From NCBI RefSeq assembly GCF_900086985.1, contig NZ_LT593974.1, positions 3,286,001 through 3,350,000 on the forward strand: a DNA stretch of 64,000 nucleotides, read 5' to 3'. The notes below the pieces were generated by a model. The model worked only from the letters and a program-made list of their open reading frames with translations, searched no databases and was not told the origin of the DNA. Below are positions 13,588-50,286 of this stretch, in pieces. The stretch's first letter is position 1. Each line of letters opens with the position of its first letter. Position numbers and translations under genes: made by a program. This DNA is from Halomonas sp. HL-93 (lineage in GTDB: Bacteria > Pseudomonadota > Gammaproteobacteria > Pseudomonadales > Halomonadaceae).

Positions 13588-13622
13588 ATGCGGCCAACTA
13601 ATGCCTTCCAAAAACAATGACA

Positions 13623-13703
13623 AGTGTAGCGCTGAGTGGAAGCAGCACCCTGTGCCAATGCGTAGGCTGGTAAAAAACTACTACCTATAAAGGCCAGGGG
13701 AAC
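13623..13703 (+). repeat. Leader-type repeat element, copy 2
   Basis: Nearly identical to 8149-8229: one G-to-A change in the GCGCT/AGCGC stem (creating an A-C mismatch) and one T-to-C change near the ribosome site. It starts 36 bases after the stop of the first exoprotein gene and runs to the ATG of the second. No clear terminator lies between the two genes, so the second may be read through from the first as well as from its own start. Confidence 0.7.
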
Positions 13704-34420: not shown

Positions 34421-34506
34421 CGCCCTGCCCCTTATCGCGCTATACTTGTCGCCATTTTTTCGACCCCTTATGAATTCCATGCTTCCCTGCGGGGAGCATC
34501 GTTGCG

Positions 34507-37365
34507 GTGAGCCAATCCATGGAAAAGACCTACCAACCTGAGCAGATCGAAACCCGCTGGTACGAGCGCTGGGAAGCCGACAACCGTTTCGCCCCGTCAG
34601 GCCGCGGCGAGCCGTTCTCGATCATGATCCCGCCGCCCAACGTGACCGGCAGTCTGCACATGGGCCACGCCTTCCAGGACACCATCATGGATACCCTGAC
34701 CCGCTGGAAGCGGATGCAGGGCAACAACACCCTGTGGCAGGTAGGCACCGACCACGCCGGTATCGCCACGCAGATGCTGGTGGAGCGCAAGATCGCCGCT
34801 GAAGAGGGCAAAACCCGCCACGACCTGGGTCGCGATGCGTTCATCGACAAGGTATGGGAGTGGAAAGAAGAATCCGGCGACCATATTACCCGCCAGCTGC
34901 GCCGCATGGGCGCCAGCGTCGACTGGTCCCGCGAGCGCTTCACCATGGACGACGGCTTCTACAAGGCCGTCCAGGAAGTGTTCGTGCGCCTGCACGAAGA
35001 AAACCTGATCTATCGCGGCAAGCGCCTGGTCAACTGGGATCCGACGCTGCACACCGCCATTTCCGACCTAGAAGTAGAGAACAAGGAGCAGCAGGGAAGC
35101 TTCTGGCACTTCCGCTACCCGCTGGCGGATGGCGTTAAAACCGACGACGGCAAAGATTACCTGGTGGTCGCCACGACGCGTCCGGAAACCCTGCTGGGCG
35201 ATACCGGCGTGGCGGTCAATCCCGAAGACGAACGCTACGCCTCCCTGGTCGGCACGTTTATCGAGCTGCCCCTGGTCGGCCGTCGGATTCCCATCGTCGC
35301 CGACGAGCATGCCGACATGGACAAGGGCTCGGGCTGCGTAAAAATCACCCCGGCCCACGACTTCAACGACTACGAGGTCGGCAAGCGCCAGAACCACCTG
35401 CTGATCAACGTCTTTTCCAAGGACGCGGCGATTCTTGAGCAGGCCGAGATTTACGACCTGAAAGGCACTCCCCAGCCAGATGAAGACGCCACGCTACCGG
35501 CCAAGTACGTCGGGCTCGACCGCTTCGAGGCGCGCAAGCTGATCGTCGCCGACATGGACGCCCTGGGCCTGCTCGAGCAGGTGGAAGCCGTCAACAACAC
35601 CATGCCCTACGGCGACCGCTCGGGTGACGTGATCGAGCCGCTGCTCACCGACCAGTGGTTTGTCGCCGTGGAGTCGCTTGCCAAGCCCGCCATCGAAGCG
35701 GTGGAAAAAGGCGACATCCAGTTCGTGCCCAAGAACTACGAAAACATGTACTTCGCCTGGATGCGCGACCTCCAGGACTGGTGCATTTCCCGCCAGCTGT
35801 GGTGGGGCCACCGCATCCCCGCCTGGTACGACGCCGAAGGCAATGTCTACGTTGCCCGCACGGAAGCCGAAGCTCGCGAGAAGCACGGCCTCGGCGTCGA
35901 TATCGAGCTGACCCAGGACGAAGACGTGCTGGATACCTGGTTCAGCTCGGGCCTGTGGACCTTCGGGACCCTCGGCTGGCCGGAACAAACCCCGGAGCTT
36001 GAGGCCTTCCACCCCACCAGCGTGCTGGTCACCGGCTTTGACATCATCTTCTTCTGGGTGGCCCGGATGATCATGATGACGCTCAAGTTCACCGACGAAG
36101 TCCCGTTCAAGACGGTCTATGTACACGGTCTGGTGCGCGACGGCCAGGGCCAGAAGATGTCCAAGTCCAAGGGCAATGTACTCGACCCCATCGACCTGAT
36201 CGACGGTATCAGCCTGGACGCGCTGCTCGAAAAACGCACCGGCAACATGATGCAGCCGCAAAAGGCCAAGGCGATTGCCAAAGCCACCAAAGAAGAGTTT
36301 AAAGACGGCATTGAAGCCCACGGCACCGATGCGCTGCGCTTTACGTTTCTCTCCCAGGCGACGACCGGGCGCGATATCAAGTTCGATATGAACCGTCTGG
36401 ACGGCTATCGCAACTTCTGCAACAAGCTGTGGAACGCCTCTCGCTACGTGCTGATGAACGCCGAAGGCGAGGATTGCGGCACCGACGGTGGCGAGGTGGC
36501 ACTGTCGCTGGCCGACCGCTGGATTATCTCCCAACTGCAGAAAACCGAGGCCCAGGTCACCAAGGCAATGGACGAGTATCGCTTCGACCACGCCTCCCAG
36601 GCGCTCTACGAATTCGTCTGGAACGAGTACTGCGACTGGTACCTGGAGCTTTCCAAGCCTGTTTTATGGGATGAAAATGCCACGGCGGAAGCCAAGCGCG
36701 GCACACGCCGCACGCTGGTACGCGTGCTCGAAGCCATTCTGCGCCTCGCCCACCCGATGATGCCCTATATCACCGAAGAGATCTGGCAACGCGTCGCACC
36801 GCTGGCGGGGACCTATGTAGGCGACGGCGCGTCCATCATGCTGCAGGCGTGGCCAGAAGCCGACAACAGCAAGATCGACGAGCAGGCGACCCGCGATATC
36901 GAATGGCTGAAGGGCGTGATTATCGCCGTGCGTAATATCCGCGCCGAGATGAATATTGCCCCCGGCAAGCCGCTGGACGTGTTGCTGACCAAGGGCAAGG
37001 CCGAGGACGCCGAGCGTCTGGAAAGCTACCGCCACTTCCTGGCCAAGCTCGCCAAGCTGGAAAGCGCCCAATGGCTCGCCAACCCCGACGACGCCCCACT
37101 TTCGGCCACGCAGCTGGTCGGCGATATGGAAGTACTGGTGCCCATGGCCGACCTGATCGACAAGGACGCCGAGCTCAAGCGCCTAGCGAAGGAGATCGAC
37201 AAGCAGGACAAGCTGATTGGCGGCATCGAGAAAAAGCTCGGCAACGAAGGCTTCATCGCCAAAGCCCCCGAAGCCGTGGTGGAAAAAGAGCGCGGCAAGC
37301 TGGCCGAGTTCCAGGCCGCCAAAAAGCTGCTGGAAGAGCAAAAGGCGAAGATTGCGGCGCTTTAG
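34507..37365 (+). CDS. valS: Valyl-tRNA synthetase
   Basis: 952 aa class Ia synthetase. The HIGH motif is in [19 protein letters not shown] in [14 protein letters not shown], and the editing (CP1) domain lies between ([15 protein letters not shown]). The C-terminal coiled-coil arm (~880-952; [21 protein letters not shown]) binds tRNA. Start: GTG at 34507 has GGGGAG 10 bases upstream; the ATG at 34519 ([11 protein letters not shown]) matches the usual N-terminus and remains possible. A hairpin follows 21 bases after the stop. Confidence 0.97.
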
Positions 37366-37386
37366 CGTCCGTCCATAGCGCGCACC

Positions 37387-37413
37387 AAGACGGCACCTGG
37401 GCGGTGCCGTCTT
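37387..37413 (+). terminator. Hairpin terminator after valS
   Basis: AAGACGGCACC (37387-37397) pairs perfectly with GGTGCCGTCTT (37403-37413) over 11 bp around TGGGC. The tail GCGTATTG is only weakly T-rich, but stem strength and location support termination. Confidence 0.65.
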
Positions 37414-37565
37414 GCGTATTGTGCCCCGCCCTGCCGACGCCTGAGGAACAAAACCGCTGATGACCTGCCCATAAGATCTGGACCCTTTGATCCTGATGGT
37501 CCGAGGCGGGTCACACCCTCTATCGAGTGACGCTGCCCAGCATTCACCCATTGAGGTCGCTTCCT

Positions 37566-38642
37566 ATGGCAACATCCTCCGATAAGTTCCTGAACACGCC
37601 ACCCACCCTACCGCCGCTCGACCCTGACCACATGTCGCTGTTCGAGCAAGCGGGACTGACGGTCAAGCCTCTGGAACCACTGGGCGTTGAAATATACGGC
37701 GCCGATGTTCGCACCCGGCTCCCCCAGCCCGTTATCGACGCTCTGGAAGTGGAAATGGCCCATCGCGGGTTCATCGTCTTCAAGCACCAGACGGAGCTTT
37801 CGGCGGATGAACTGGTCGAGGCCAGCACGTGGTGGGGCGCGGGCGAAATCCATTCGACCCACGGCGTTCATCCGGCAACGCCAGGCATGAACCGGGATGT
37901 CTTCCGCTGCTCTAACGACAACCGCTACGGCATCCTGGGCGTGGGGCCCCAGTGGCACAACGACGGCAGCTTCGAAGCCGCCATCTTCTCGCATTCCGCT
38001 TACTACATGGCCCGGGCACCCGAACAGGGCGGTGGCACGCACTTCGCCCACCAGGGCGCCGCCTTCGACGCGCTCCCCGAAGCAAAGCAGGCTTTCTGGG
38101 AGCGCCTTGTCTCGGTCAATTCCGCCTCAGGAGTGAGCCACCCCGTCGTCCACACCCACCCCATCTCGGGGCGCAAGAGCGTATGGCTGCACCTGGGCAT
38201 GACCGGCGCGGTAATCGAACGGCTGCCGGAAGACGGACGCCCCATCGACGAACTGCAACAGACCCCTGCCGCTACCGACCAGCTTCGCCTGCTCAACGAA
38301 GACGAGATGAAACAGCTTTTGAGCGACTACAACGATCTGTTGAATGCGTCGTTCGAGAAAGGCTTCGGGATACGTTACCACTACGACACCGGCGACCTGC
38401 TGTACATCGACAACTGGGCACTGGCGCACCGGGCAGCGCCGGAGGCGCACATGTCCGCCGAAGAGCAGGGCCTGCGGATCATGGACCGGGTGACGGTCAA
38501 AGCCAGGCAGAACCTGGCGCCCCACTTTGGCTTGCCCCAGCACATCAACCTTGCCGGCCCGCATCCCTTCAACAGCGACGGCGTCTGGAAAGCCGGGGGC
38601 GTAGGCTTTCGCTGGAAAGATGACATCCCCATGCAAAACTAG
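37566..38642 (+). CDS. TauD/TfdA-family Fe(II)/2-oxoglutarate dioxygenase
   Basis: 358 aa. Iron ligands are the HND of PQWHNDGSFE and a distal His in YIDNWALAHRAAPEAH; the 2-oxoglutarate-binding Arg is probably in GLRIMDRVTVK. Such enzymes hydroxylate small substrates to release sulfite, or to activate amino acids or alkyl compounds; the substrate is not readable here. Start at 37566 (MATSSDKF) with GAGG 10 bases upstream; a GTG at 37527 would add 13 residues. It stands about 125 bp before the kinase-transporter run. It could belong to that pathway, but the spacing suggests separate transcription. Confidence 0.85.
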   Translation: MATSSDKFLNTPPTLPPLDPDHMSLFEQAGLTVKPLEPLGVEIYGADVRTRLPQPVIDALEVEMAHRGFIVFKHQTELSADELVEASTWWGAGEIHSTHGVHPATPGMNRDVFRCSNDNRYGILGVGPQWHNDGSFEAAIFSHSAYYMARAPEQGGGTHFAHQGAAFDALPEAKQAFWERLVSVNSASGVSHPVVHTHPISGRKSVWLHLGMTGAVIERLPEDGRPIDELQQTPAATDQLRLLNEDEMKQLLSDYNDLLNASFEKGFGIRYHYDTGDLLYIDNWALAHRAAPEAHMSAEEQGLRIMDRVTVKARQNLAPHFGLPQHINLAGPHPFNSDGVWKAGGVGFRWKDDIPMQN

Positions 38643-38768
38643 GCGGTACGCCCGATGCGTTGATCATTCCCCATCGTGTCCTGACTACTTTTTCTTATCA
38701 ACCGTGTAAGGTTGGTACAACAACGACCACTGAGTGGCATTGAAGGTTGCCTTTACACGGATTGTGCT

Positions 38769-39803
38769 ATGCCGACACTCTCAGAGACGCGAATACAGAC
38801 GCTGGCGGGCGAATTACAGCGGGCGGGGATTGGCTACCGCGCGCTTTCGCCCATGGCGGATACCGGGCTTGCCCACGATCACGTGTGGCTACACCGCGAC
38901 GGCGACGACTGGGTGGCGCGGCTGCCCAAGCAGAGCCAGATGAACCTGGGGCCAAAAGAGAACCTGGCCTACGAGGCGGCGTGCTACGCCCGCGCCAGCC
39001 AGGGCGGGCATGTGCCGCGCCTGCATGGCCTGCTGGACGTCAGCGACGCCCTGCCCCGAGGCGGCCTGCTGGTGGAGGCTATCGACGGCCGCTTGGCGCG
39101 ACTGCCGGAGGATCTGCCGCGCATCGCCGAGACGCTTGCCAGCCTGCATCGCTTGCCGCTGCCGGATAAGCCCGCCCCACTGCTGTCGCCGGCTGATCCA
39201 TGGCGGGCCATGCGCGAAGAAGTCGCCCGTCAGTCTGAGTGGCTCGCGCAGGCGGACTTGAGCAGCGACGTCATCGACCAAATCCACGCTGAGCTAGACG
39301 CTCTTCCAGCGGTGCTTGCCGATGCCAAACGCTGCCTGATCAGCTTTGACACCCACCCCGGCAACTTCCTGATCGATGCCCAGGGGCGCGCGGTGCTGGT
39401 CGACCTGGAAAAGGGCCGCTACGGCCTGCCGGGGATCGACCTGGCCCACACCAGTCTTTATACCTCCACGACCTGGGATCTCAACAGCCAGGCGGTTCTC
39501 TCGCTGGACGAGGTGGTCGATTTTTACCGCGGCTGGCAGGCCGCCATGGGCGACTCCCCCAGCGCCGAGACCCTGGTCGCCTGCCGCCGCGCCACCTGGC
39601 TGTGGTCGCTGACCTGGTGCGCCAAGTGGCGCGCCCAGCACCTGCGCGCCAGGGATGCCCGGCAGCGCGGCGAGGACTGGTCGGCAGAGCTTACCGATCC
39701 CACCGTGATTGCCCACGTGCGCGACCGGGTGGAACACTACCTGTCGCCGTCGATCATCGACCGTGTTCAGGACGAACTGCAGCGCCTGCGCGCCACGCTT
39801 TAA
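38769..39803 (+). CDS. Aminoglycoside/choline/thiamine-kinase-fold phosphotransferase
   Basis: 344 aa APH-fold kinase. The catalytic loop reads SFDTHPGNFLID: the catalytic Asp and Asn of HxDxxxxN are kept but the leading His is Ser. The metal-binding segment is AVLVDLEKG. The N-lobe has DHVWLHRDGDDWVARLP with KENLAYEAACY, the ATP-site Lys/Glu region. Members phosphorylate choline, thiamine, sugars or antibiotics. The gene lies 55 bp before a thiamine-like/YnjB binding-protein gene on the same strand, so a kinase acting on the imported compound is the simplest reading. Start chosen at MPTLSETRIQT. Antibiotic resistance is unlikely in this context. Confidence 0.8.
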   Translation: MPTLSETRIQTLAGELQRAGIGYRALSPMADTGLAHDHVWLHRDGDDWVARLPKQSQMNLGPKENLAYEAACYARASQGGHVPRLHGLLDVSDALPRGGLLVEAIDGRLARLPEDLPRIAETLASLHRLPLPDKPAPLLSPADPWRAMREEVARQSEWLAQADLSSDVIDQIHAELDALPAVLADAKRCLISFDTHPGNFLIDAQGRAVLVDLEKGRYGLPGIDLAHTSLYTSTTWDLNSQAVLSLDEVVDFYRGWQAAMGDSPSAETLVACRRATWLWSLTWCAKWRAQHLRARDARQRGEDWSAELTDPTVIAHVRDRVEHYLSPSIIDRVQDELQRLRATL

Positions 39804-39858
39804 TGCCGGGCGTTGGAAAGACGCAGGTTACCCCTATTGTTCGATTGAGAGGTATGCG

Positions 39859-41070
39859 ATGTTGAATGCCCGCCGTTTTACCCTGATGGCCCCTCTATTG
39901 GCACTGGCGCTGCCCGCCGCGGCAGCCCCCGACCCCGGTAACTGGCAAGCGGTGTTAGCCGAGGCCGAAGGCCAAACCGTTTACTGGAACGCCTGGGGCG
40001 GGGACTCGCGTACCAACCGCTATATCGACTGGGTGGCCGAGCAAATGCAGGCGCAGCACAACATTGACGTTGAGCACGTAAAACTGGACGACACCAGCAG
40101 TGCGGTGTCCCGGGTACTGGCCGAGAAGCAGGCGGGCAACGACGACGAAGGCAGCATCGACCTGATCTGGATCAACGGCGAAAACTTTGCCGCGATGCGT
40201 GACCGCGACCTGCTGTTTGGCCCCTTCGCCGAATCGCTGCCCAATTTTGCGCTGACCAACGCCGCCGAGAACCCCGAAGTGGTGACCGACTTCACGCTGC
40301 CCACCGACGGCTACGAGTCACCCTGGGGAAAGGCGCAGATCACCTTCTATTACGACGCTGATCAGGTCGAAACGCCGCCCCAGGACATGCAGGCGCTGCT
40401 TGACTGGGCGCGCGCCAACCCCGGCCAATTCAGCTACCCGAAAATCCCCGATTTCACCGGCAGCACCTTTTTAAAGCAGGCGCTGATCGAGCTGACCGAC
40501 CAGGATGAGGCGCTTTATCAGCCCGTTGAGGAGAGCGATTTCGAGGCGGTCACCGAAGCACTATGGGCCTATCTGGATGCACTCCATCCACACCTCTGGC
40601 GCAGCGGGCGCAGCTTCCCCGACTCAGGCCCCAACCTGCGCACGCTGATGAGCGATGGCGAGCTGAGCCTGGCGTTTTCGTTCTACCCCACCGATGCCGC
40701 CGTGGCGGTAAGGGAATACGAACTGCCCGAGAGCGTTCGCAGCTATGTCCTGGACGGCGGCACTCTGGGTAACGTTCACTTCGTGGCGATCCCCTACAAC
40801 TCACCCCACAAGGCCGGCGCCATGGTACTGGCCGACTTTCTGATGTCACCGGAAGCCCAGGCCCAGAAGCAGTCGCTCGAGATGTGGGGCGACCGCAGCG
40901 TGCTGGATATCGAACAGCTCGACGCCGATAACCAGGCGCTGTTCGAGCAGGGTGATCGCCACCCGTCCGAACTTCCGGCGGACGCCCTGTCCAAAACGCT
41001 CCCCGAGCCGCACCCGAGCTGGATGACGGCGCTACAGGATGCCTGGCTCGAGCGTTACGGCGTTAACTGA
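39859..41070 (+). CDS. ABC transporter substrate-binding protein, YnjB family
   Basis: 403 aa with a signal peptide (MAPLLALALPAAAA, cleavage ~22). The mature start, VYWNAWGGDSRTNRYIDWVA, is the YnjB signature, and IDLIWINGENFAAMRD follows. It is a periplasmic binding protein of the thiamine/iron/spermidine type. In E. coli the YnjBCD substrate is unknown, so none is assigned here. The start has GAGAGG upstream. It is followed at 2 bp by the permease, and the ATP-binding gene overlaps that by 4 bp, so the three subunits are translated together. The acidic mature chain is consistent with a salt-adapted cell envelope. Confidence 0.9.
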   Translation: MLNARRFTLMAPLLALALPAAAAPDPGNWQAVLAEAEGQTVYWNAWGGDSRTNRYIDWVAEQMQAQHNIDVEHVKLDDTSSAVSRVLAEKQAGNDDEGSIDLIWINGENFAAMRDRDLLFGPFAESLPNFALTNAAENPEVVTDFTLPTDGYESPWGKAQITFYYDADQVETPPQDMQALLDWARANPGQFSYPKIPDFTGSTFLKQALIELTDQDEALYQPVEESDFEAVTEALWAYLDALHPHLWRSGRSFPDSGPNLRTLMSDGELSLAFSFYPTDAAVAVREYELPESVRSYVLDGGTLGNVHFVAIPYNSPHKAGAMVLADFLMSPEAQAQKQSLEMWGDRSVLDIEQLDADNQALFEQGDRHPSELPADALSKTLPEPHPSWMTALQDAWLERYGVN

Positions 41071-41072
41071 GC

Positions 41073-42752
41073 ATGCTGCGACTCGCGCCGGCGCTGCTTA
41101 TTACCCTGCTGGCCCTGCCGGTGGGGGCCGGCCTGCTGATGGTGCTGCTGCCGGCGTTTGGCTACCTGCCGGCGCTCGGCGGCGACGCGGTCAGCCTTGC
41201 GCCCTGGCGAATGCTGCTCGCCCACCCCGGGCTTGGTCGCTCAGTGGCGGTGAGCTATGCCAGCGGCCTGGTGAGCACCTTGCTGGCGCTGGCCATCGTC
41301 GTGCTGTTTCTGGCCGCCAGCCGCGGCACCTGGCTGGACCGAGGCATCCGCCGCCTGGTATCACCGCTACTGGCGATCCCCCACGCGGCCGTGGCCTTTG
41401 GGCTGGCGTTCTTGATGGCGCCCTCGGGACTTCTGGCACGCTGGGTATCGCCGGGCCTTACCGGCTGGGAGCGCCCGCCCGACTGGCTCATCGTCAACGA
41501 CCCCCTGGGGCTTGCGCTGATGGCCGGGCTGGTGCTCAAGGAAGCGCCGTTTCTGCTCCTCATGTGCCTGGCCGCCCTGCCTCAGCTGCGTCCCGAGCAG
41601 CGCGTAACCCTGGCGCGCTCGCTGGGTTACTCGCCGAGTATCGCCTGGTTGAAAGGCGTGTTTCCGGCGCTATACCCGCTGATTCGCCTGCCGATTTACG
41701 CAGTGATTGCCTACGCCACCTCGGTGGTCGACATGGCCATGATCCTGGGCCCGACATTGCCGCCCACGCTGAGTGTGTCGATACTGACCTGGTTCAACGA
41801 CCCCGACCTGGAGCGGCGCTTCATGGCCTCCGCCGGGTCCGTGCTGCAGCTTGGCGTGACGCTGGCGGCGCTGCTGACCTGGTGGCTGGGCGAGCAGTGT
41901 ATCAAGCGGCTCGGCTATCGATGGCTGGTCAACGGCGCGCGACGGCAGGGCTCGTTCGCCATCGCGCTGGGCGGACGCGGGCTGCTGGGCATGACCACCC
42001 TGCTGGCGCTGAGCGCCATTGGCGGGCTGGCGGTATTTTCGGTGGCCGGTTTCTGGCGCTTTCCTGACGCCTTGCCCGGAACGTTCACCCTGGACCATTG
42101 GCAGCGCGTGTTGCCCAGCGTCGCTACACCGCTACTCAATACGCTGAGCGTCGGGCTTGCCGCGACGCTGATCGCTGCGGTGCTGGTCGTGGCCACGCTT
42201 GAAAACGCAGCGCGGCACCGGCTCCCGCCTCAAGCAGGCCAGTGGCTACTGTACCTACCGCTGATTATCCCTCAGGTGGCGTTCCTGTTTGGCCTGGTGG
42301 TCGCGGCGGAAAGCCTCAGCCTTCGCCCGCAGTGGGCGCTGGTAATGGCGGCGCATTTGCTGTTTGTGGTGCCCTATCTTTATCTGTCGCTTTCTGAGGC
42401 GTATCGGCGGCTTGACCCGCGCTGGCTGCAAGTCGCGCATTCGTTGGGGTCCTCTCCCAGGAGAGCCTTCTGGCAGATACGGCTGCCGCTGCTGCTGGCG
42501 CCGCTGCTGACCGCCTGCGCGGTCAGTCTTGCCGTAAGTATCGGCCAGTATCTTCCCACGCTGTTGCTCGGCGGCGGCCGCGTGCCCACCATTACCACCG
42601 AAGCGGTGGCCATGGCTTCAGGCGGCAGTCGGCGCCTGATTGCGGTGCTCGCGCTGCTCCAGGCGCTACTGCCGTTCATCGGTTTTAGTCTTGCGCTGCT
42701 GATACCGCGCCTAATATGGGCCAGACGACGCAATATGCGAGGCGTTGCATGA
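41073..42752 (+). CDS. ABC transporter permease, YnjC/ThiP type (fused two-domain)
   Basis: 559 aa with about 12 helices, formed by two BPD_transp_1 domains fused in one chain, as in ThiP and FbpB. The EAA-type loops are visible as RSLGYSPSIAWLKGVFPALYP (~195) and HSLGSSPRRAFWQIRLPLLLAP (~467), each ahead of the coupling site for the ATPase. It starts 2 bases after the binding-protein stop and overlaps the ATPase start by 4 bp. With its neighbours it makes a complete importer for an unknown small solute. Confidence 0.92.
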   Translation: MLRLAPALLITLLALPVGAGLLMVLLPAFGYLPALGGDAVSLAPWRMLLAHPGLGRSVAVSYASGLVSTLLALAIVVLFLAASRGTWLDRGIRRLVSPLLAIPHAAVAFGLAFLMAPSGLLARWVSPGLTGWERPPDWLIVNDPLGLALMAGLVLKEAPFLLLMCLAALPQLRPEQRVTLARSLGYSPSIAWLKGVFPALYPLIRLPIYAVIAYATSVVDMAMILGPTLPPTLSVSILTWFNDPDLERRFMASAGSVLQLGVTLAALLTWWLGEQCIKRLGYRWLVNGARRQGSFAIALGGRGLLGMTTLLALSAIGGLAVFSVAGFWRFPDALPGTFTLDHWQRVLPSVATPLLNTLSVGLAATLIAAVLVVATLENAARHRLPPQAGQWLLYLPLIIPQVAFLFGLVVAAESLSLRPQWALVMAAHLLFVVPYLYLSLSEAYRRLDPRWLQVAHSLGSSPRRAFWQIRLPLLLAPLLTACAVSLAVSIGQYLPTLLLGGGRVPTITTEAVAMASGGSRRLIAVLALLQALLPFIGFSLALLIPRLIWARRRNMRGVA

Positions 42753-43381
42753 CCGCGAATCCCACTCTGCACCTCAGGCAAGTCCAGATCTCGCTGAACG
42801 GCGACCCACTGCTTGCAATCGACAGATCGATTACCCCCGGCGAAGTATTGACCGTCATGGGCCCTTCGGGGTCGGGCAAGTCTACGCTGCTGGCCTATCT
42901 CGCCGGGTTTCTGTCGCCTACCTTCAACGCCCAGGGGCAGGTTTTTCTGGGTAAGATGCGGCTGGACACACTGCCCGCCGAGCAACGCGGGCTGGGGCTG
43001 CTGTTCCAGGACCCGCTGCTGTTTCCTCATTTAAGCGTGGCGGGCAACCTGCGTTTTGCGCTCCCCCGCCATGCGCGGCATAAAAAATCCCAGATCCGCG
43101 AGGCCCTTGCCCAGGTCGGCATGGCGGGCTTTGAAACGCGGGACCCGGCGACGCTCTCCGGTGGCCAGCAGGCCCGCGTCGCTTTGATGCGTCTGCTGCT
43201 GTCGACGCCCAGCGCGGTACTGCTGGACGAACCCTTTTCCAAGCTGGACACCGCGCTACGCCAGGAGATGCGCGCGCTGGTATTCAGCCAGCTGCGCGAC
43301 GCCGGCCTGCCAGCGCTGCTGGTCACCCACGACCACGCGGATGCCGAGGCGGCGGGAGGGCCGATCATTGAGCTTGGCTAG
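42749..43381 (+). CDS. ABC transporter ATP-binding protein, YnjD/ThiQ type
   Basis: 210 aa, a minimal ATPase. Walker A GPSGSGKST, Q-loop LLFQDPLLFPHLSV, signature LSGGQQARVALMR, Walker B AVLLDEPFSKLD, and H-loop VTHDHADAEA are all intact. The short form without a regulatory C-terminal domain matches YnjD and ThiQ. Start is ATG at 42749, overlapping the permease stop by 4 bp. The next gene begins within or right at its 3' end, so the operon continues. Confidence 0.93.
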   Translation: MTANPTLHLRQVQISLNGDPLLAIDRSITPGEVLTVMGPSGSGKSTLLAYLAGFLSPTFNAQGQVFLGKMRLDTLPAEQRGLGLLFQDPLLFPHLSVAGNLRFALPRHARHKKSQIREALAQVGMAGFETRDPATLSGGQQARVALMRLLLSTPSAVLLDEPFSKLDTALRQEMRALVFSQLRDAGLPALLVTHDHADAEAAGGPIIELG

Positions 43382-44072
43382 TCCACGACCACCTGCGGCA
43401 CTAAGCATTGTCATGCCGGTGCTCAACGAAGCCGCTGGCCTTGAAGCCACCCTAGAGGCACTTCAGCCGGTGCGCGCCCAGGGCGCTGAAGTCATCGTTG
43501 TGGATGGCGGCAGCGTTGATGAGAGCGTGGCGCTGGCGACGCCGCTGGCGGATAGAGTCATCAGCGGTGTGCCGGGCCGCGCGTGGCAAATGAACCTGGG
43601 CGCGCAGCAGGCCAGTGCCCAGGCGCTGGTGTTCCTGCATGCCGACACCCAACTACCCGATAATGCCGTGAGCCAGATCACTAAGGCGCTGGCCCGCCAC
43701 GCCTGGGGGCGATTCTCGATTGAGCTGACAGGCCGCAGTCGCTGGCTGCCCGTGGTCGGGTGGATGATGAACCAGCGCTCAAGGCTCACCGGCGTCGCCA
43801 CCGGCGACCAGGCGATCTTCGTGCGTACCGCCACGTTTCGCCACCTCGGCGGGTTTGCCGACCAGCCGCTGATGGAAGACGTGGAACTGACGAAACGCCT
43901 CAGACGCGTATCACGCCCCGCCTGCCTGGCGGCGAAAGTGATAAGCTCGGGCAGGCGTTGGGATCAATACGGCGCCTGGGCCACCATCCGCTTGATGTGG
44001 CGGCTGCGCTATCGTTACTGGCGCGGCGTTAGCCCCACTCAACTCGCCAAGGAGTACCGCGATGCCCGCTGA
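43368..44072 (+). CDS. Family-2 glycosyltransferase of the selenodomain-associated type (TIGR04283-like)
   Basis: 234 aa GT-A fold transferase. LSIVMPVLNEAAGLEATLEAL begins the nucleotide-sugar domain; VVDGGSVDESV provides a modified DxD region; GRAWQMNLGAQQASAQALVFLHADTQLP is highly characteristic of the family named 'transferase 2, rSAM/selenodomain-associated'. The chain ends soon after ATIRLMWRLRYRY with a short basic tail. Start: TTG at 43368 has GGGAGGG 7 bases upstream; an ATG at 43341 without ribosome site would add 9 residues. It overlaps the ATPase by 14 bp and the next gene by 11 bp, so it belongs to the same transcript. Confidence 0.85.
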   Translation: MSLASPRPPAALSIVMPVLNEAAGLEATLEALQPVRAQGAEVIVVDGGSVDESVALATPLADRVISGVPGRAWQMNLGAQQASAQALVFLHADTQLPDNAVSQITKALARHAWGRFSIELTGRSRWLPVVGWMMNQRSRLTGVATGDQAIFVRTATFRHLGGFADQPLMEDVELTKRLRRVSRPACLAAKVISSGRRWDQYGAWATIRLMWRLRYRYWRGVSPTQLAKEYRDAR

Positions 44073-44676
44073 GCAGCCCCATCTACACCTGTTGGCCAAG
44101 GCCCCGCTGCCCGGGCGGGCGAAAACGCGCCTGATGCCGCTGCTCGGCGCCGAGGGCGCCGCCCAGGCCCACGCCGAGCTGGTACGCCACTGTGTGGCCA
44201 ATGCCTGCCGGGCGCTGCCCGCCGAGCGCATCACGCTGTGGACCGCCCTCGACCATGCCCACCCGCTGTTTGGTGAGCTGGGCGCCCATTTCGGCATTAC
44301 CCTGCGCGCCCAGCCTGGGGGCGATCTGGGTGCGCGTATCCGCCACGCGCTGGCGAGCACACCGGGGCCCGGCATGGTCATGGGCAGCGACTGCCCAAGC
44401 GTCACCAGCGACTTGATCACAGCCTGCGCGCAACGCCTGACCAGCCACGAGGTCGTCCTGCTGCCCGCCGAAGACGGTGGCTACGGGTTGATCGGCACCC
44501 AGCACGATTACCCCGGGCTGTTTGAGCTGATTCCCTGGGGGAGCGACCGGGTCATGGCCGCCACCCGCCAGCGTATTGAGGCGCTCGGCCTGCGTGCCAG
44601 CTATCCCGCAACGGTGTGGGACGTCGACCGCCCCGCCGACTGGCAGCGCTGGAAAGGCATTCAGGCGCCGATGTAA
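44062..44676 (+). CDS. CofC/MobA-like transferase of the selenodomain-associated type (TIGR04282-like)
   Basis: 204 aa. LHLLAKAPLPGRAKTRLMPLLG at the start is a nucleotidyltransferase-like P-loop region, MGSDCPSVTSDL gives the metal site, and PAEDGGYGLIG is the family hallmark. It belongs to the DUF2064 family called 'transferase 1, rSAM/selenodomain-associated', which nearly always sits next to the GT2 of the preceding gene. The pair is known from neighbourhoods of SelD-like and ArsS-like genes, but its reaction has not been firmly established as far as I know. Overlaps the preceding gene by 11 bp; 53 bp precede the next. Confidence 0.88.
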   Translation: MPAEQPHLHLLAKAPLPGRAKTRLMPLLGAEGAAQAHAELVRHCVANACRALPAERITLWTALDHAHPLFGELGAHFGITLRAQPGGDLGARIRHALASTPGPGMVMGSDCPSVTSDLITACAQRLTSHEVVLLPAEDGGYGLIGTQHDYPGLFELIPWGSDRVMAATRQRIEALGLRASYPATVWDVDRPADWQRWKGIQAPM

Positions 44677-44729
44677 GGAAACACGCCGCCCGCCCACTGA
44701 ACCGAACTGTTAAATGGCTTTCGCTGGAG

Positions 44730-46880
44730 ATGACCTTGAACCGACAACGCTTACTGATTGCCTCGCTACTCATCGTTGCTATCAGTGCTTTTTTCCTGAG
44801 TGGCGCCCACCAGTGGTTCACGCTCGACACCCTGAAAGCCTACCAGAATGATTTTCAGGCGGCGTTCAGCCAGTCGCCCTGGCAGGTCGCGGGGATTTTC
44901 TTTGCCGTCTACGTGGTGATGACCGCGCTGTCGCTGCCCGGCGCCACCCTGCTCACCCTGCTCGGCGGCACCCTGTTCGGACTTGGCTGGGGGCTTTTGA
45001 TCATTTCCTTTGCCAGCACAATAGGTGCGACGCTGGCGTTTCTGCTGTCGCGCTTCCTGTTCCGCCGCCCCATCGAAAAGCGCTTTCCGCGCCAGTTTGC
45101 CTCGGTCAACCGCGGCGTCGAACGCGACGGCGCTTTGTATCTGTTCACCATGCGGCTGGTGCCGGTGTTCCCGTTTTTCATGATCAACCTGGTCATGGGC
45201 CTGACGCGCATCAAGACCGTCACGTTTTACTGGGTCAGCCAGGTGGCCATGCTTCCCGGCACCGCCATCTACGTCAACGCCGGGGGGCAGCTGGGCGAGC
45301 TGGAAACGCTCAGCGGTATCCTGTCGCCGACGCTGATCGGCTCCTTCCTGCTGCTGGCCATCTTCCCCTGGATCGCCCGCCGCCTCGTGCGGCTGGTCCA
45401 GACGCGCAAGGCCTACCAGGGCTTTACCCGGCCCGCGCATTTCGACTACGACATTCTGGTCATCGGCGGCGGCTCGGCGGGGCTGGTCACCAGCTATATC
45501 GCCAGCGCCGTCAATGCCAAGGTGGCGCTGGTCGAAAAGCACAAGATGGGCGGCGACTGCCTGAATACCGGCTGCGTGCCTTCCAAAGCGCTGATCCGCG
45601 CCGCCCGCGCCGCCCACGAGATTCGCACGGCCTCCCGCTTCGGGATCACCACGAGCGACCCGCAGATCGACTTCCAGCGCGTCATGGGCCACGTCCATCA
45701 GGCCATCCGCGACATCGAGCCCCACGACAGCGTCGAGCGCTACCGCGGGCTGGGCGTCGAGGTCTATCAGGACCACGCCACGCTGACCTCGCCGTGGCAC
45801 GTCCAGGTCGGCGATCAGACCCTGAGCGCCCGGCATATCGTGCTGGCCACCGGGGCGCGCCCCAAGGTGCCGGCGATTCCTGGCATCGAAAGCGCGCCGG
45901 TGCTGACCTCTGAAAACCTGTGGTCGCTTACCGAACTGCCCAAACGTCTGGTGGTGCTGGGCGGGGGCGCCATCGGCTGCGAACTGAGCCAGAGCTTTGC
46001 ACGTCTGGGCAGCCAGGTCACCCTGGTAGAAGGCATGCCCCATCTGCTGGGCCGCGAGGACCAGGAGGTCGGCGAGGCCGTCGAAGCCACCCTGGCCCGC
46101 GAAGGTGTGACGGTGATGACCGAGGCCAAGGCGTTTGAGGTGGTCAGCGATGACGCTGGGCATCAGCTGGTGGTCGAGCAACACGGCGAGCGCACGACGC
46201 TGGCCTTTGATTACCTGCTGGTCAGCGTTGGTCGCCAGGCCAACATCGAAGGGCTGGGGCTCGAGGCCCTCGGCGTTACCACCGGCGCCGCCGGCACCTT
46301 GGAGCTCAACGAGCGGCTGCAAACCCGGCTGCCCAACCTCTGGGCCTGCGGGGACCTCGCCGGGCCCTACCAGCTCACCCACGCAGCGGCCCACCAGGCC
46401 TGGCATGCGGCTGTGAATGCGCTGTTTGGCGAGCTGAAGAGCTTTGCGGTTGACTACCGCTTTATGCCTGCGGTTACCTACGTCCAGCCAGAGGTCGCCC
46501 GGGTCGGTCTGAACGAAAAAGAGGCAATCGACAAGGGCATTGACTATGAAGTGACCCGCTACGCCATGAGCGAAAGCGACCGCGCGATTGCCGAAGGTGC
46601 CACCGAGGGCTTTATCAAGGTGCTCACCGTGCCGGGCAGGGACAAGATTCTCGGCGCGACCATCGTCGCGGAGAACGCCGGCGAATGGCTGGGCGAGTTT
46701 ACCCTGGCCATGAAACACGGCCTGGGCCTGAACAAGCTGCTGGGCACCATTCACCCCTACCCGACCCTGGGCGAGGCGGCCAAGGCCACGGCGGGCGTAT
46801 GGAAAAACGCCCATAAACCCGAGCGGGTGCTGACGCTGTTGAAACGCTACTTCGCCTGGCGGCGCGGTGTCGCTAAATGA
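44730..46880 (+). CDS. TVP38/TMEM64 membrane domain fused to a pyridine-nucleotide disulfide oxidoreductase
   Basis: 716 aa, two-part protein. Residues ~1-235 form a TVP38/DedA-like membrane domain with LPGATLLTLLGGTLFG and FTMRLVPVFPFFMINLVMG. Residues ~240-716 are a complete flavoprotein of the mercuric reductase / dihydrolipoamide dehydrogenase type: FAD loop VIGGGSAGLV, redox-active MGGDCLNTGCVPSKAL, NAD loop VVLGGGAIGCEL, and the C-terminal dimer His/Glu site TIHPYPTLGEA. The cysteine pair is intact, so disulfide chemistry at the membrane is likely. Start at 44730; TTG at 44736 with GGAG 6 bases upstream is an alternative. Similar fusions occur in cyanobacteria and marine proteobacteria; the substrate is unknown. 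Confidence 0.9.
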   Translation: MTLNRQRLLIASLLIVAISAFFLSGAHQWFTLDTLKAYQNDFQAAFSQSPWQVAGIFFAVYVVMTALSLPGATLLTLLGGTLFGLGWGLLIISFASTIGATLAFLLSRFLFRRPIEKRFPRQFASVNRGVERDGALYLFTMRLVPVFPFFMINLVMGLTRIKTVTFYWVSQVAMLPGTAIYVNAGGQLGELETLSGILSPTLIGSFLLLAIFPWIARRLVRLVQTRKAYQGFTRPAHFDYDILVIGGGSAGLVTSYIASAVNAKVALVEKHKMGGDCLNTGCVPSKALIRAARAAHEIRTASRFGITTSDPQIDFQRVMGHVHQAIRDIEPHDSVERYRGLGVEVYQDHATLTSPWHVQVGDQTLSARHIVLATGARPKVPAIPGIESAPVLTSENLWSLTELPKRLVVLGGGAIGCELSQSFARLGSQVTLVEGMPHLLGREDQEVGEAVEATLAREGVTVMTEAKAFEVVSDDAGHQLVVEQHGERTTLAFDYLLVSVGRQANIEGLGLEALGVTTGAAGTLELNERLQTRLPNLWACGDLAGPYQLTHAAAHQAWHAAVNALFGELKSFAVDYRFMPAVTYVQPEVARVGLNEKEAIDKGIDYEVTRYAMSESDRAIAEGATEGFIKVLTVPGRDKILGATIVAENAGEWLGEFTLAMKHGLGLNKLLGTIHPYPTLGEAAKATAGVWKNAHKPERVLTLLKRYFAWRRGVAK

Positions 46881-48013
46881 TCCAGCTGTTACTCATCGGC
46901 GCGGGCCATGCCCACGCCTTCGTACTGGAAGCCTTTGCCCGACACCCCGATGCCAGGGTGGCCATCACCGTGGTGAGCGACAGTCCCATGGCCGCGTATT
47001 CAGGCAGTGTCCCGGCCTGGCTGGCGGGTGAATGTTCGCTGCGTGACACCCAGATCGACGTTGCGGCACTCTGCCAGCGGGCAGGCGCGCGGTTTGTATC
47101 TTCACCGGTGGTGGCCATTGACAGCAAAACGCGCCACGTCAGCTTGGCCAACGGCGAGACGCTGCACTTTGACGTGGCCTCGCTCAATGTAGGCTCGACC
47201 CTGGCGTTGCCCACGCTGCATGGCGACCACCTTCCGCATCTCCTGGCCATGCGTCCGCTCAGCTCGTTGCATCATCGCTGGCAGGCATTGCGCAACGATA
47301 TCGAACGGCTCCCCCAGGTCGGCCACCAGCGCGTGGTGAGCGTCGGGGGCGGGGCAGCAGGCTGTGAAACCTTGCTGAGCGTACTGGCCCAGGTGCGCCA
47401 CCAACGCCCGGATATCCACTGGTCGGGGCATGTGCTCAGCGCCTCGCAGACGCTGCTGCCCGACGCAGGTCGGCTGCCCCGCTGGCTGACCCGGCGCGCG
47501 TTAGCCAGGGCAGGCATTCAGCTGCATCTCCAGCAGCGCGGAGCTTCGCTAGTCGAGGGCGGTGTCGCCACCACCCAGGGCGGCTTCATCGCCGCCGACA
47601 TCGTGCTGTGGGCCACCGGGGCGGTCGGCCACGACTGGCTTTCCAACACCCAACTGCCGCTGGACGCTCAGGGGTTTATCCGGGTTGAAAAGACGCTGGA
47701 AGTCGCGGGACAGCCGGGGATCTTTGCCGCTGGCGACTGCGCCGCCTGCGACCCACCCCTGCCCAACGCCGGGGTATATGCGGTACGCATGGGACCCCAT
47801 CTGGCCGACAACCTGCGCCGCGCTTGCCACGGCGAGTCACTCACCGACTGGCAGCCCCCAGCACGCGTCCTCGCGCTGATCGGCACCGGCGACGGTCGCG
47901 CCATCGCCAGTCGAGGCGCCCTGGGCGTTTCGGGCAGGTGGGTGTGGGAATGGAAAAAGCGGATCGATGCGCGCTTTCTAGCCCGCTTCAATCCGCCTTT
48001 TGAAGACCAATGA
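46877..48013 (+). CDS. NDH-2-like flavoprotein, the 'N-terminal to SelD' type (TIGR03169-like)
   Basis: 378 aa. The FAD loop is LLIGAGHAHAFVLEAFARHP, with the unusual GHAH in place of GGG, a trait of the family that in other bacteria is fused upstream of selenophosphate synthetase. A second nucleotide loop, VVSVGGGAAGCE, and a terminal FAD block, GIFAAGDCAA, follow. No redox-active CxxC pair is seen. SelD itself is not in the window and no SelD part is fused here. Its ATG overlaps the preceding stop by 4 bases. It is the last gene of the run; no clear terminator follows. Confidence 0.85.
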   Translation: MIQLLLIGAGHAHAFVLEAFARHPDARVAITVVSDSPMAAYSGSVPAWLAGECSLRDTQIDVAALCQRAGARFVSSPVVAIDSKTRHVSLANGETLHFDVASLNVGSTLALPTLHGDHLPHLLAMRPLSSLHHRWQALRNDIERLPQVGHQRVVSVGGGAAGCETLLSVLAQVRHQRPDIHWSGHVLSASQTLLPDAGRLPRWLTRRALARAGIQLHLQQRGASLVEGGVATTQGGFIAADIVLWATGAVGHDWLSNTQLPLDAQGFIRVEKTLEVAGQPGIFAAGDCAACDPPLPNAGVYAVRMGPHLADNLRRACHGESLTDWQPPARVLALIGTGDGRAIASRGALGVSGRWVWEWKKRIDARFLARFNPPFEDQ

Positions 48014-48055
48014 CTGCCGTTGAAGGCTAACTGAAAAGCCGCCACGCCATCGAGG

Positions 48056-48517
48056 CTAGTTCGATTCTCGCCAGCCACCCAGTACCCGGCTATCCGGGCC
48101 GAAAAACACCAGCCGATCATGGTCGACCAAGTAGCGATAGGCGTTCTCGAGCATGTCCGTTATCCGCTGCGCATCTTCCTGGTTGGGGCACGCTTTACGC
48201 GTGGTGGATAGCTCACTTATTTCGATACGCTGGCTATCGCCCAGCTTGGCCTTACCGGTAAACCGATTACAGCCGTCGTGGCCGCTGACCCGACCGTCCC
48301 GGTCGATTTCAAAAAAGGGGGTCTCCGGCATCGACAGCCGTTCATTGGTACCCACCAGCAGTAGATCCCAGCGCTGCTCGACGACCGGCCCGGAAAGCGA
48401 GTCGCTGCTCGGCGCGTCCTCTGGCGATGAGCTTGGGCCTGGCGCACTGCTGCAGGCGCTAAGCAGCAGTGCGACCGGGGCCAGCCAAAGGCATAATCGC
48501 CCGCCTTTCATGGTCAT
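48056..48517 (-). CDS. META/HslJ-domain lipoprotein
   Basis: 153 aa. The signal peptide ends in the lipobox LLSAC (Cys ~21), followed by a Ser/Pro/Asp-rich linker. The META-type domain is recognisable by GCNRFTGKAKLGD and ISELSTTRKACPNQEDAQRITDML, as in HslJ. It is probably anchored in the outer membrane and stress-related. ATG at 48517 or 48511 (MKGGRL) are both possible. It lies 23 bp downstream of the glyoxalase gene on the same strand. Confidence 0.85.
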   Translation of the reverse strand: MTMKGGRLCLWLAPVALLLSACSSAPGPSSSPEDAPSSDSLSGPVVEQRWDLLLVGTNERLSMPETPFFEIDRDGRVSGHDGCNRFTGKAKLGDSQRIEISELSTTRKACPNQEDAQRITDMLENAYRYLVDHDRLVFFGPDSRVLGGWRESN

Positions 48518-48540
48518 GATGAACCTTCCTTGTGTGATGA

Positions 48541-48981
48541 TTACCAGCTACCGGTATTTTCCATCGACGCCCAGGGCTCCTGGGGCGCCAGCGCGTCGCC
48601 TTTTTGTAACAGCTCGACGGAGATGCCATCCGGCGACTTGACGAAGGCCATGTGACCGTCCCGCGGCGGGCGGTTGATGGTGACGCCATTGTCCGCAAGC
48701 TTCTGGCACAGCGCGTAGATGTCATCGACACGGTAGGCCAGGTGACCGAAATTGCGCCCGCCGGTATATTCTTCCGGGTCCCAGTTGTAGGTCAGCTCAA
48801 GCTCTGGGGCCGTCAGCCGCGCTGAGCGTTCCTCGTCGTCGGGGGCGGCGAGAAACACCAGCGTAAAGCGGCCTTTGTCGTTTTCCTTGCGACGCACTTC
48901 CTTGAGGCCCAGCAGCTCGCAGTAAAAGTGCAGCGAAGCGTCTAGATCGCTGACGCGAACCATGGTGTGTAGGTATTGCAT
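48541..48981 (-). CDS. gloA: Lactoylglutathione lyase (glyoxalase I)
   Basis: 146 aa VOC-fold enzyme. Metal ligands appear as His5 (YLHTMVRV), Glu of ELELTYNW, His of NFGHLAYRV and Glu of SVELLQ, the set of the Ni-type GloA. It isomerises the methylglyoxal-glutathione adduct to S-lactoylglutathione. The C-terminal tail (~15 residues beyond SVELLQ) is slightly longer than in E. coli GloA. Start is [13 protein letters not shown] with AGGAGAG upstream. Confidence 0.93.
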
Positions 48982-49203
48982 GCATCTCTCCTGATTGGGT
49001 CATGTGACGATGGTGACATAAAACACCCGACGCGCGCTCTTCATGCGCCAAGCTTAGCATTCCTGTTGCCGTCTTGCGGCCAGGGCGCTGGCTCGGTTGT
49101 CACGCCGATTGGGCGTATTAATTAGACAACAGTCTTACATGAGAATACTTTATTCACAATCATGTGCAATTAGTGTCACTTTCACCTTACCGGGGGAGAC
49201 AAC

Positions 49204-50286
49204 GTGGATTCAGTCACACAGGCGGTGCTGGGCGCGGCAGTGGGCGGCGCCGTATTGGGGCGACGACTGGGGCGCAAGGCCGTACTGATGGGGGCGCTGC
49301 TGGGCACCCTGCCGGACCTGGACGTGGTGCTCGACTACGGCGATGCGGTGGCCAACGTCACCGAACACCGTGGCTTCAGTCATTCGCTTTTCGTGCTCAC
49401 CGGCCTGGCCGCGTTGTTAAGCGTGGTGAGCGCGCGGCTGGCCCCCGCCCGGGATATTTCACTCGCCCGCTGGGGCGCCTTCTTTGGACTGATTCTGATC
49501 AGCCACCCGCTACTGGATGCCTTGACCGCTTACGGCACACAGCTGCTGTGGCCGCTTGCGACCCCGCCGGTCGCCTGGCCGCTGGTCTTCATCATCGACC
49601 CGTTTTACTCGCTGCCACTGCTGGCCTGCCTGATCACCGCGTTAGTGACCCGCCGGGTCAGGCGCTGGTGCGGCTGGGGCCTGGCGATATCCAGCCTGTA
49701 CCTGGTGATGTCTGTTGGCGCCAAGCTCAGCGTTGAACACAAACTCGCGCCGGTGCTCGCCGAACAGGGGCTCGACACGGCGCCCCGCCTGGTACAGCCG
49801 ACGCCGTTTAACATCCTGCTCTGGCGGGCCACCGTGGTCGACGGTGATCGCTACTATGAAAGCCTGGTGAGCCTGTTCGATGGCGATGCTTCGCCGACCC
49901 TGGAGCCGCTACGCCGCGGCGCGGCGCTGGAAGGGGCCGCCCTCGACAGTCACGCAGGGCAGCGGCTTGCGTGGTTTGCCGGGCCGTTTCTGCGCTACGA
50001 GATGCGCCTGATCGAGGATAAGCTCACCTTGATCGCGACCGACCTGCGCCTGGGGTTTCCCGGGTTTCATCCGTTCAGCTTCACCCTCGCCACCCGCGAG
50101 AACGCCGAGTGGCAGCCGGTCGACCCTACCGCCGAAATTGGCAGCGAACGGGGCGTTCAGTTCGCCACGCTATCGCGCCTGGCGGCACGCGCGTTGGGCG
50201 AACGTGACGCACTTTGCGCCACGGCCTTCGTGTCGGCTGAGTGGCAGCTTCAGCCGCTCGCCCTGCCTTGCTCACCTGCCCGCTAG
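49204..50286 (+). CDS. Membrane-bound metal-dependent hydrolase (YdjM/DUF457 type)
   Basis: 360 aa. DSVTQAVLGAAVGGAVLGRR at the start, GTLPDLDVVLDYG and the metal-binding HRGFSHSLFV place it in the LexA-regulated YdjM/DUF457 family. About five hydrophobic helices (~20-185) are followed by a ~170-residue C-terminal part rich in beta strands. The start is GTG at 49204 with GGGGGAG 7 bases upstream. A hydrolase reaction has not been demonstrated for most members. It is convergent with the next gene; their stop codons overlap by 4 bases. Confidence 0.85.
   Translation: MDSVTQAVLGAAVGGAVLGRRLGRKAVLMGALLGTLPDLDVVLDYGDAVANVTEHRGFSHSLFVLTGLAALLSVVSARLAPARDISLARWGAFFGLILISHPLLDALTAYGTQLLWPLATPPVAWPLVFIIDPFYSLPLLACLITALVTRRVRRWCGWGLAISSLYLVMSVGAKLSVEHKLAPVLAEQGLDTAPRLVQPTPFNILLWRATVVDGDRYYESLVSLFDGDASPTLEPLRRGAALEGAALDSHAGQRLAWFAGPFLRYEMRLIEDKLTLIATDLRLGFPGFHPFSFTLATRENAEWQPVDPTAEIGSERGVQFATLSRLAARALGERDALCATAFVSAEWQLQPLALPCSPAR

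Follow-up and report, generated by a model that had tools for sequence, protein, structure and literature searches.

In a 64,000-nucleotide stretch of the Halomonas sp. HL-93 genome (positions 3,286,001 to 3,350,000 of NZ_LT593974.1, the single contig of a 4.14 Mb genome), hereafter the window, eight genes run on the + strand from 38769 to 48013. The core of this operon is a kinase with the APH fold, the YnjBCD importer, the GT2 transferase TIGR04283 and the nucleotidyltransferase-type enzyme TIGR04282 (NT). We consider it plausible, if still short of probable, that the operon takes up a sugar-like solute that is phosphorylated, nucleotidylated and then transferred; this solute would probably belong to the class handled in ArsS-type loci (arsenosugar biosynthesis, according to NCBI), with the importer and the kinase replacing the ArsS enzyme and the phosphorylase of those loci. 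The parts are ordinary, and the combination is without report in the open literature we searched; that literature also yielded no function for the cluster and no substrate for YnjBCD, including that of the Escherichia coli ydjXYZ-ynjABCD locus, and the term 'selenodomain', under which the initial annotation listed the two transferases, was absent from it.

According to the list of open reading frames and the family scans, the largest gap in the run is 55 bases, and the successive intergenic distances are 55, 2, -4, -41, -11, 53 and -4 bases. The first gene (38769..39803) encodes a 344-aa small-molecule kinase (PF01636, 62 bits) with the conserved motifs SFDxHPGN and VDLEK, 97% identical to a kinase of Halomonas sp. 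hl-4. It is followed by the periplasmic solute-binding protein YnjB (39859..41070, 403 aa), which scores 552.6 bits against NF008633 (cut-off 203), by the double-length permease YnjC (41073..42752, 559 aa), which matches PF00528 in two stretches and has PhnV/ModB-type permeases as its nearest NCBIfam families, under cut-off, and by the importer ATPase YnjD (42749..43381; PF00005, 107 bits), whose gene overlaps ynjC by 4 bases. A YnjB over cut-off is thus followed by its permease and its ATPase, which together make up a YnjBCD importer. The GT2 gene (43341..44072; TIGR04283, 267 bits, cut-off 182; PF00535) overlaps ynjD by 41 bases if its ATG at 43341 is used, and a later start is possible, for example the TTG at 43401. 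The product of the NT gene (44062..44676; TIGR04282, 163 bits, cut-off 134; DUF2064, PF09837) also matches CofC (31.7 bits, under the CofC cut-off) and has one PDB relative, 3cgx; judged from its sequence it is of the CofC-like nucleotidyltransferase type, although its NCBI name says glycosyltransferase. The last two genes encode flavoproteins. One (44730..46880) is a membrane VTT (TVP38/TMEM64) domain fused to an FAD disulfide reductase (PF09335, PF07992 and PF02852 at 85, 216 and 101 bits), with the motifs CLNTGC (C277, C282) and HPYPT; the other (46877..48013, overlapping it by 4 bases) is a TIGR03169 (Nterm_to_SelD) FAD/NAD oxidoreductase of 378 aa (335 bits, cut-off 310) that stands alone, with no fusion partner. 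The initial annotation had named this tight run and its families, including a pair of sugar/nucleotide transferases, and the scans bore out every gene of it.

The core of the operon travels together. Among the loci of the best 80 of 596 confirmed YnjB matches in named genomes (57 of the 80 outside Halomonadaceae), a set biased to close relatives of the window protein because only the best matches were taken, 25 hold the kinase; in all 25 it lies immediately upstream of ynjB on the same strand, at a spacing of 51-169 bases from match to match. Five of these loci come from outside Halomonadaceae (Marinobacter, Roseovarius, Defluviimonas, Arenibaculum and an alphaproteobacterial metagenome-assembled genome). 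GT2 and NT occur in 21 of the 80 loci, always as a pair and with the kinase alongside in 19, and outside Halomonadaceae they accompany the kinase in 2 of 5 loci (p=0.03). The 20 Halomonadaceae kinase loci other than that of the window, for which 20 kb each were fetched, gave a similar picture: ynjB is present in 18 and GT2 with NT in 16, and in one further kinase locus the pair lies about 11 kb from ynjB. The gene order is therefore kept beyond chance expectation.

Co-occurrence at the level of whole genomes follows the same lines. Across 61 Halomonadaceae genomes the kinase is present in 21, YnjB over cut-off in 30 and TIGR04282 over cut-off in 34, and all 21 kinase genomes hold both YnjB and TIGR04282 (Fisher tests, uncorrected for kinship: p=1e-9 for kinase and YnjB, p=8e-8 for kinase and TIGR04282). 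This includes two genomes, G006 and G045, in which the three genes sit at separate sites and yet are all present, and one sampled genus with the full set in two genomes and no member of it in two others. Where TIGR04282 occurs without ArsS, the proposed pathway would lead one to expect the kinase or YnjB, and one of them is present in 23 of 26 genomes (20 with the kinase, 3 with YnjB only), and YnjB is found in 6 of the 27 genomes that have no TIGR04282. An even sample of 398 genomes from across the phylum contains the kinase (E<=1e-30) in 8 cases, and in all 3 of those outside Halomonadaceae it is adjacent to GT2 and NT. The module of kinase, importer and transferases thus recurs in gamma- and alphaproteobacteria, and the part of the earlier proposal that spoke of uptake of a small compound followed by activation through phosphate and nucleotide or sugar transfer is supported.

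The proposal had also included the handling of a redox-active group, and here the genes are less constant. The VTT-FAD fusion is clear in 7 of the 20 other kinase loci and TIGR03169 is present in 4; among the 80 YnjB loci, 8 have TIGR03169 at no more than 9 kb from ynjB. Both are looser partners than the kinase, the importer and the transferases, and for this reason the redox half of the interpretation is its weakest part. DedA and VTT proteins form one superfamily, and in E. coli K-12 the importer genes stand beside two DedA-family genes, in the order ydjX (DedA), ydjY, ydjZ (DedA), ynjA, ynjBCD, ynjE and, on the opposite strand, ynjF (CDP-alcohol-transferase type), so the tie between the importer and a protein of VTT/DedA type is not confined to Halomonadaceae, and E. 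coli offers a laboratory model. Unlike the window, the E. coli locus has no kinase, GT2 or NT and instead has an AhpD-like YnjA, the sulfurtransferase YnjE and YnjF; ydjXYZ-ynjABCD is tabulated as FNR-activated in PMC3688515, and the literature searched gave no assigned function for the locus. The fusion and a TIGR03169-type or other FAD oxidoreductase were also seen near DUF2282, DUF692 and DoxX genes, which we take to be of bufferin type, in L049 (a Salmonella IncC plasmid), L140 and L143. A ynjB gene is present in L049 and L143 and not in L140, and in the IncC plasmid it is followed by an open reading frame (about 290 aa) that matches ynjC in part and then by an IS26 transposase.

The class of solute is suggested by the GT2/NT pair, whose NCBI family names both include 'arsenosugar biosynthesis', a label that two papers take over as arsenic tolerance (PMC13077682, PMC11237643). 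ArsS matches (E<=1e-60) occur in 116 of the 398 phylum genomes, 114 of them over cut-off, and 20 of these loci were sampled, picked for spread and contig size. They contain the VTT-FAD protein in 12 cases (9 as the whole fusion, 3 partial), NT in 8, GT2 in 7 (one doubtful), DUF3047 in 5 (mostly weak matches), a methylthioadenosine (MTA) phosphorylase (MTAP) in 3 and TIGR03169 in 2, and neither the kinase nor ynjB in any of the 20. One of them reads MTAP-arsS-VTTFAD-GT2-NT on a single strand. An Acinetobacter plasmid has the order arsS, VTT-FAD, DUF547, TIGR04283, TIGR04282, methyltransferase, phosphate transporter and MTA phosphorylase, and a Burkholderia glumae plasmid has VTT-FAD, an FAD oxidoreductase, TIGR04282, TIGR04283 and MTA phosphorylase. 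Four linked phosphorylases were classified (L140, L141, L179 and L180): PRK07432 was the best family for each, one of them exceeded its cut-off, and the general MTAP cut-off was exceeded by all. These loci resemble that of the window in having the same kind of GT2/NT pair and the VTT-FAD fusion, and differ in that the window has an ABC importer and a kinase, while its genome has no ArsS, ArsM or MTAP at the thresholds used.

A tree was built from 60 GT2+NT pairs, some of them identical rows that represent the same strain as both a named locus and a genome. The Halomonadaceae kinase-linked pairs make up 33 of the 38 rows of one clade, whose sister is an ArsS-linked pair (support 97/94, the bootstrap not fully settled), and the labels kinase and ArsS need three changes on the tree, with the alphaproteobacterial kinase-linked pairs placed apart. 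Comparison of the 34 kinase-linked pairs with 11 ArsS- or MTAP-linked ones (a set that includes the MTAP-linked L140 and leaves out L183, whose branch of 3.04 and doubtful GT2/NT set it aside) gave no alignment column with a fixed difference. The same test against two other groups gave 18/4 and 6/15 columns in GT2/NT (L126, with its partial NT, being left out of the alphaproteobacterial set). By its nesting in the tree, and by the lack of a fixed column difference between the full sets, the TIGR04282/TIGR04283 pair of the window is of the ArsS-linked kind; it is therefore probable that both settings share a single substrate class for the pair, importer and kinase standing here where ArsS and a phosphorylase stand elsewhere.

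Taking gene content, order, conservation, co-occurrence and tree nesting together, we infer the following reactions and nature of the solute, here called X. YnjBCD would import X, a small polyhydroxylated, sugar-like compound, which the kinase would phosphorylate, most simply at the anomeric hydroxyl; TIGR04282 would then convert phosphorylated X to NDP-X, and the GT2 enzyme would move X onto an acceptor such as glycerol, a lipid or another alcohol. X would probably be of the class that the same enzyme pair handles in ArsS loci, that is, a 5-deoxy-5-substituted ribose, and it may contain arsenic. A sugar 1-phosphate would arise from ArsS followed by MTA phosphorylase in ArsS loci and from import and the kinase here, with the VTT-FAD reductase and the TIGR03169 flavoprotein as possible accessory redox or membrane partners. 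There is a model for the proposed first step in the salvage of 5-methylthioribose (MTR) and 5-deoxyribose, in which a kinase (MtnK or DrdK) or a phosphorylase (MtnP) likewise gives a sugar 1-phosphate. MtnK itself has the APH fold. Unlike those pathways, the window run has no isomerase or aldolase, it has a nucleotidyltransferase-type enzyme and a GT2, and its kinase has no match to the MtnK family. For 5-deoxyribose, PMC6079011 describes kinase and phosphorylase as interchangeable, either one giving the sugar 1-phosphate. A more specific version would be the salvage of exogenous 5-substituted ribosides, arsenosugar-like ones or thio- or deoxyriboses, with the importer and a new anomeric kinase supplying X-ribose 1-phosphate to TIGR04282 and TIGR04283 in place of ArsS and MTA phosphorylase. 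Bacteria without an arsenosugar-forming enzyme would then import such sugars, re-activate them and re-glycosylate them, and the (arseno)ribose-1-phosphate nucleotidyltransferase still missing from arsenosugar biosynthesis would be TIGR04282; this version is speculative, and we hold it with considerable doubt.

Several results weigh against the proposed pathway, in part or as a whole. With regard to the module itself, YnjB has none of kinase, GT2 and NT beside it in 53 of the 80 loci, and in 9 of the 61 family genomes, 3 of which have TIGR04282, it occurs without the kinase. Three other TIGR04282 genomes (G005, G014 and G029) have neither kinase, YnjB nor ArsS, and carry MTAP-like genes. No ynjB lies within 20 kb in 2 of the 20 other family kinase loci, and of the 3 phylum kinase loci outside Halomonadaceae one has ynjB about 9 kb away and two have none within 20 kb. 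Kinase relatives of 41-47% identity are held by 12 Azospirillum plasmids, and the three of these regions that were read contain no gene of the cluster, with moaB next door in both of the annotated ones. With regard to the substrate class, small ArsS-linked subsets do differ from the kinase-linked pairs, by 5/10 columns for L154 and L155 (two Halomonadaceae pairs) and by 2/4 for the sister pair. The source genome has no ArsS (TIGR04167, best 26 bits against a cut-off of 300), and neither ArsM, for which NF008823 was the only model used, nor MTA phosphorylase gave a match there at E<=1e-30. None of the 8 family genomes with ArsS has an ArsM-like match at E<=1e-30, and so 'ArsS' in this family need not mean arsenic; no genome of the 61 has NF008823 over cut-off.

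The folds of the kinase and of YnjB do not point to one identity for X. NCBIfam includes an MtnK model, and the kinase had no MtnK-family match in that scan (E<=0.001); nor was MTR kinase among the 50 rows in either of two kinase listings, which excludes nothing. The AlphaFold2 (AF2) model of YnjB (pLDDT 92) has a solute-binding-protein fold, and its Foldseek matches favour proteins binding 2-aminoethylphosphonate (2-AEP), sugar phosphates and polyamines where VIA favours sugar-binding ones, with no decision between them. A genome-wide exchange between MTAP and kinase was considered as further support and dropped. An MTAP-like gene or the kinase is present in 33 of the 34 TIGR04282 family genomes, the former in 12 of 13 without the kinase and 7 of 21 with it (p=0.001; p=0.0013 at the level of genera, counted by eye). 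However, MTAP-like genes occur in 25 genomes of the family and, of 10 proteins fetched, all 8 that were classified are of the methylthioinosine-phosphorylase type, a further point against our interpretation, and the exchange therefore carries little weight.

Among the other explanations, a pathway of the Kennedy type fares best, and we regard it as unlikely. In such a pathway YnjBCD would import an alcohol resembling choline or ethanolamine, the kinase would phosphorylate it and TIGR04282 would make the CDP-alcohol, to be attached to a lipid or glycan by GT2 in the window and elsewhere by a CDP-alcohol phosphatidyltransferase like YnjF. The kinase fold would be compatible with an alcohol kinase of this kind. 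A YnjF-type gene is present in 19 of the 80 YnjB loci, and the loci of this type in Rhodobacterales, Pseudoalteromonas and Paracoccus share the importer with the window, several of them also having VTT-FAD and an FAD oxidoreductase, but they have the CDP-alcohol transferase where the window has kinase, NT and GT2. Kinase and YnjF are never found in the same locus of the 80 (p=4e-4), an exclusion that loses significance outside Halomonadaceae (p=0.16), and one family locus from outside that set, L040, has both. Against an alcohol pathway there is also the recurrence of GT2 and NT beside ArsS and, in some loci, MTAP; the single YnjF-type protein scanned was nearest to synthases that use inositol phosphate, under cut-off, and the family scans found no enzyme of choline or phosphonate pathways in the run.

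Uptake of arsenosugars or other organoarsenicals, that is, the salvage of dimethylarsinoyl-ribosides from seawater and their re-glycosylation, with the flavoproteins keeping the arsenic reduced, appears less likely again. It draws on the nesting of the GT2/NT pair among ArsS-linked pairs, on the repeated presence of VTT-FAD and of weak DUF3047 matches in the ArsS loci and on two marine loci in which a TonB receptor lies ahead of VTT-FAD and ynjBCD. However, 20 of the 21 kinase genomes have no ArsS and 19 of 21 no ArsM-like match (E<=1e-30), the family scans found no arsenic-resistance gene among the run proteins, and binding of such a ligand is hypothetical. The initial annotation had offered arsenic as one possible redox-active group, a link that gains indirect support from the nesting and loses some from the occurrence of the cluster in genomes without arsenic genes, which was part of what the annotation itself had named as refuting it. 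The earlier interpretation as a whole is partly supported. ArsM-like genes, all under cut-off, were seen in eight family genomes (G005, G020, G021, G029, G032, G035, G039 and G040), in all eight on a contig shared with ynjB or TIGR04282 and about 24-82 kb away from it. Eight such regions, from seven of these genomes, were fetched; seven have an open reading frame of the ECF-sigma type, and none has a gene of the uptake operon.

It is improbable that the importer, kinase and transferases have separate functions and are merely co-located. Loci with YnjB and none of the other core genes would fit such a loose neighbourhood, as would the three genomes with YnjB and TIGR04282 and no kinase and the flavoproteins that come and go; the adjacency of kinase and ynjB in 25 of 25 loci, the presence of YnjB and TIGR04282 in every kinase genome of the family, even where unlinked, and the adjacent kinase, GT2 and NT of three distant genomes argue against it.

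A selenium route, in which selenosugar or selenophosphate chemistry would be tied to SelD as the name of TIGR03169 implies, is very improbable. TIGR03169 is over its cut-off and selD lies elsewhere in the genome, 211 kb past the end of the window (C1:3561040, 418 bits, cut-off 125), which agrees with the earlier observation that the run itself holds no selD, arsM or ArsS gene. However, in the 31 of the 61 genomes that were profiled, selD was over cut-off in 30, with the kinase or without it; being near-universal in the family, it makes the profile uninformative, and selenium is not supported by it; TIGR03169 itself is in few of the other kinase loci. No name from the SenB glycosyltransferase family, a mark of selenoneine clusters, appeared among the matches listed for the run proteins (E<=0.001; the best 25 for YnjD and VTT-FAD). 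In 9 of the 31 genomes (G005, G006, G011, G034, G039, G045, G048, G049 and G059) the frame that holds the SelD match is about 750-834 aa long, as expected of a TIGR03169-SelD fusion and in keeping with a selenium link, and the five genomes of the same genus with TIGR03169 in the cluster have no such frame. Thiamine salvage, with YnjBCD importing thiamine and the kinase acting as ThiK, is equally hard to credit: ThiQ is the best NCBIfam relative of YnjD (under cut-off) and ThiK the only NCBIfam match of the kinase (E<=0.001), but the latter scores 22.2 bits against a cut-off of 299.45, no TPP riboswitch or other Rfam element reached its gathering score in 34000-50000, and GT2 and NT would have no evident role. 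Neither the selenium nor the thiamine reading is supported.

The surroundings of the operon are more variable. A TauD/TfdA-family dioxygenase gene (37566..38642, +; PF02668) stops 126 bases short of the kinase, and the initial annotation had included it by starting its interval at 37566; the eight genes from 38769 stand as a unit, and we judge TauD to lie outside it. As an operon member it was rejected for its patchy occurrence (1 of the 20 other kinase loci and 2 of the 80 YnjB loci). In both the window and G058 it has valS on one side and the kinase on the other; L061 and L078 have it too, and no further kinase or YnjB locus was seen to carry it. The GC content of the cluster (38769-48013) is 65.7% against 59.2% for the window, and it is also above that of valS in four relatives. 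Promoter-like sites (3, against 1.8 in shuffled sequence) and terminator-like ones (13, against 7.9) include none that is convincing at the ends of the operon.

Other families recur around clusters of this kind. A conserved ECF sigma factor, a DUF3047 protein and a C92-type cysteine hydrolase are found around it in L028, L031, L033, L040, L042, L043 and others, and were not among the window genes scanned. Six YnjB loci (L083, L084, L088, L102, L104 and L105) have a protein family in common, whose member at L104:8864-9934, ending 67 bases before the ynjB match, carries a SPASM domain and matches a radical-SAM family with a score that falls just short of the cut-off. Elsewhere in the window, at 8230-19808, two huge adjacent open reading frames (1785 and 2034 aa) with an ESPR signal, a TPS secretion domain and GLUG and MBG_2 repeats encode tandem two-partner-secretion exoproteins, and a 541-aa open reading frame (19808-21433) follows.

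The locus joins an importer, a kinase and both transferases in one reaction order and shows the GT2/NT pair living without ArsS. If the proposed pathway is true, it would give a substrate class to a widespread orphan importer and an activity to the kinase, and it would fill a gap in arsenosugar synthesis, namely the activation that must follow ArsS before the arsenosugars are finished.

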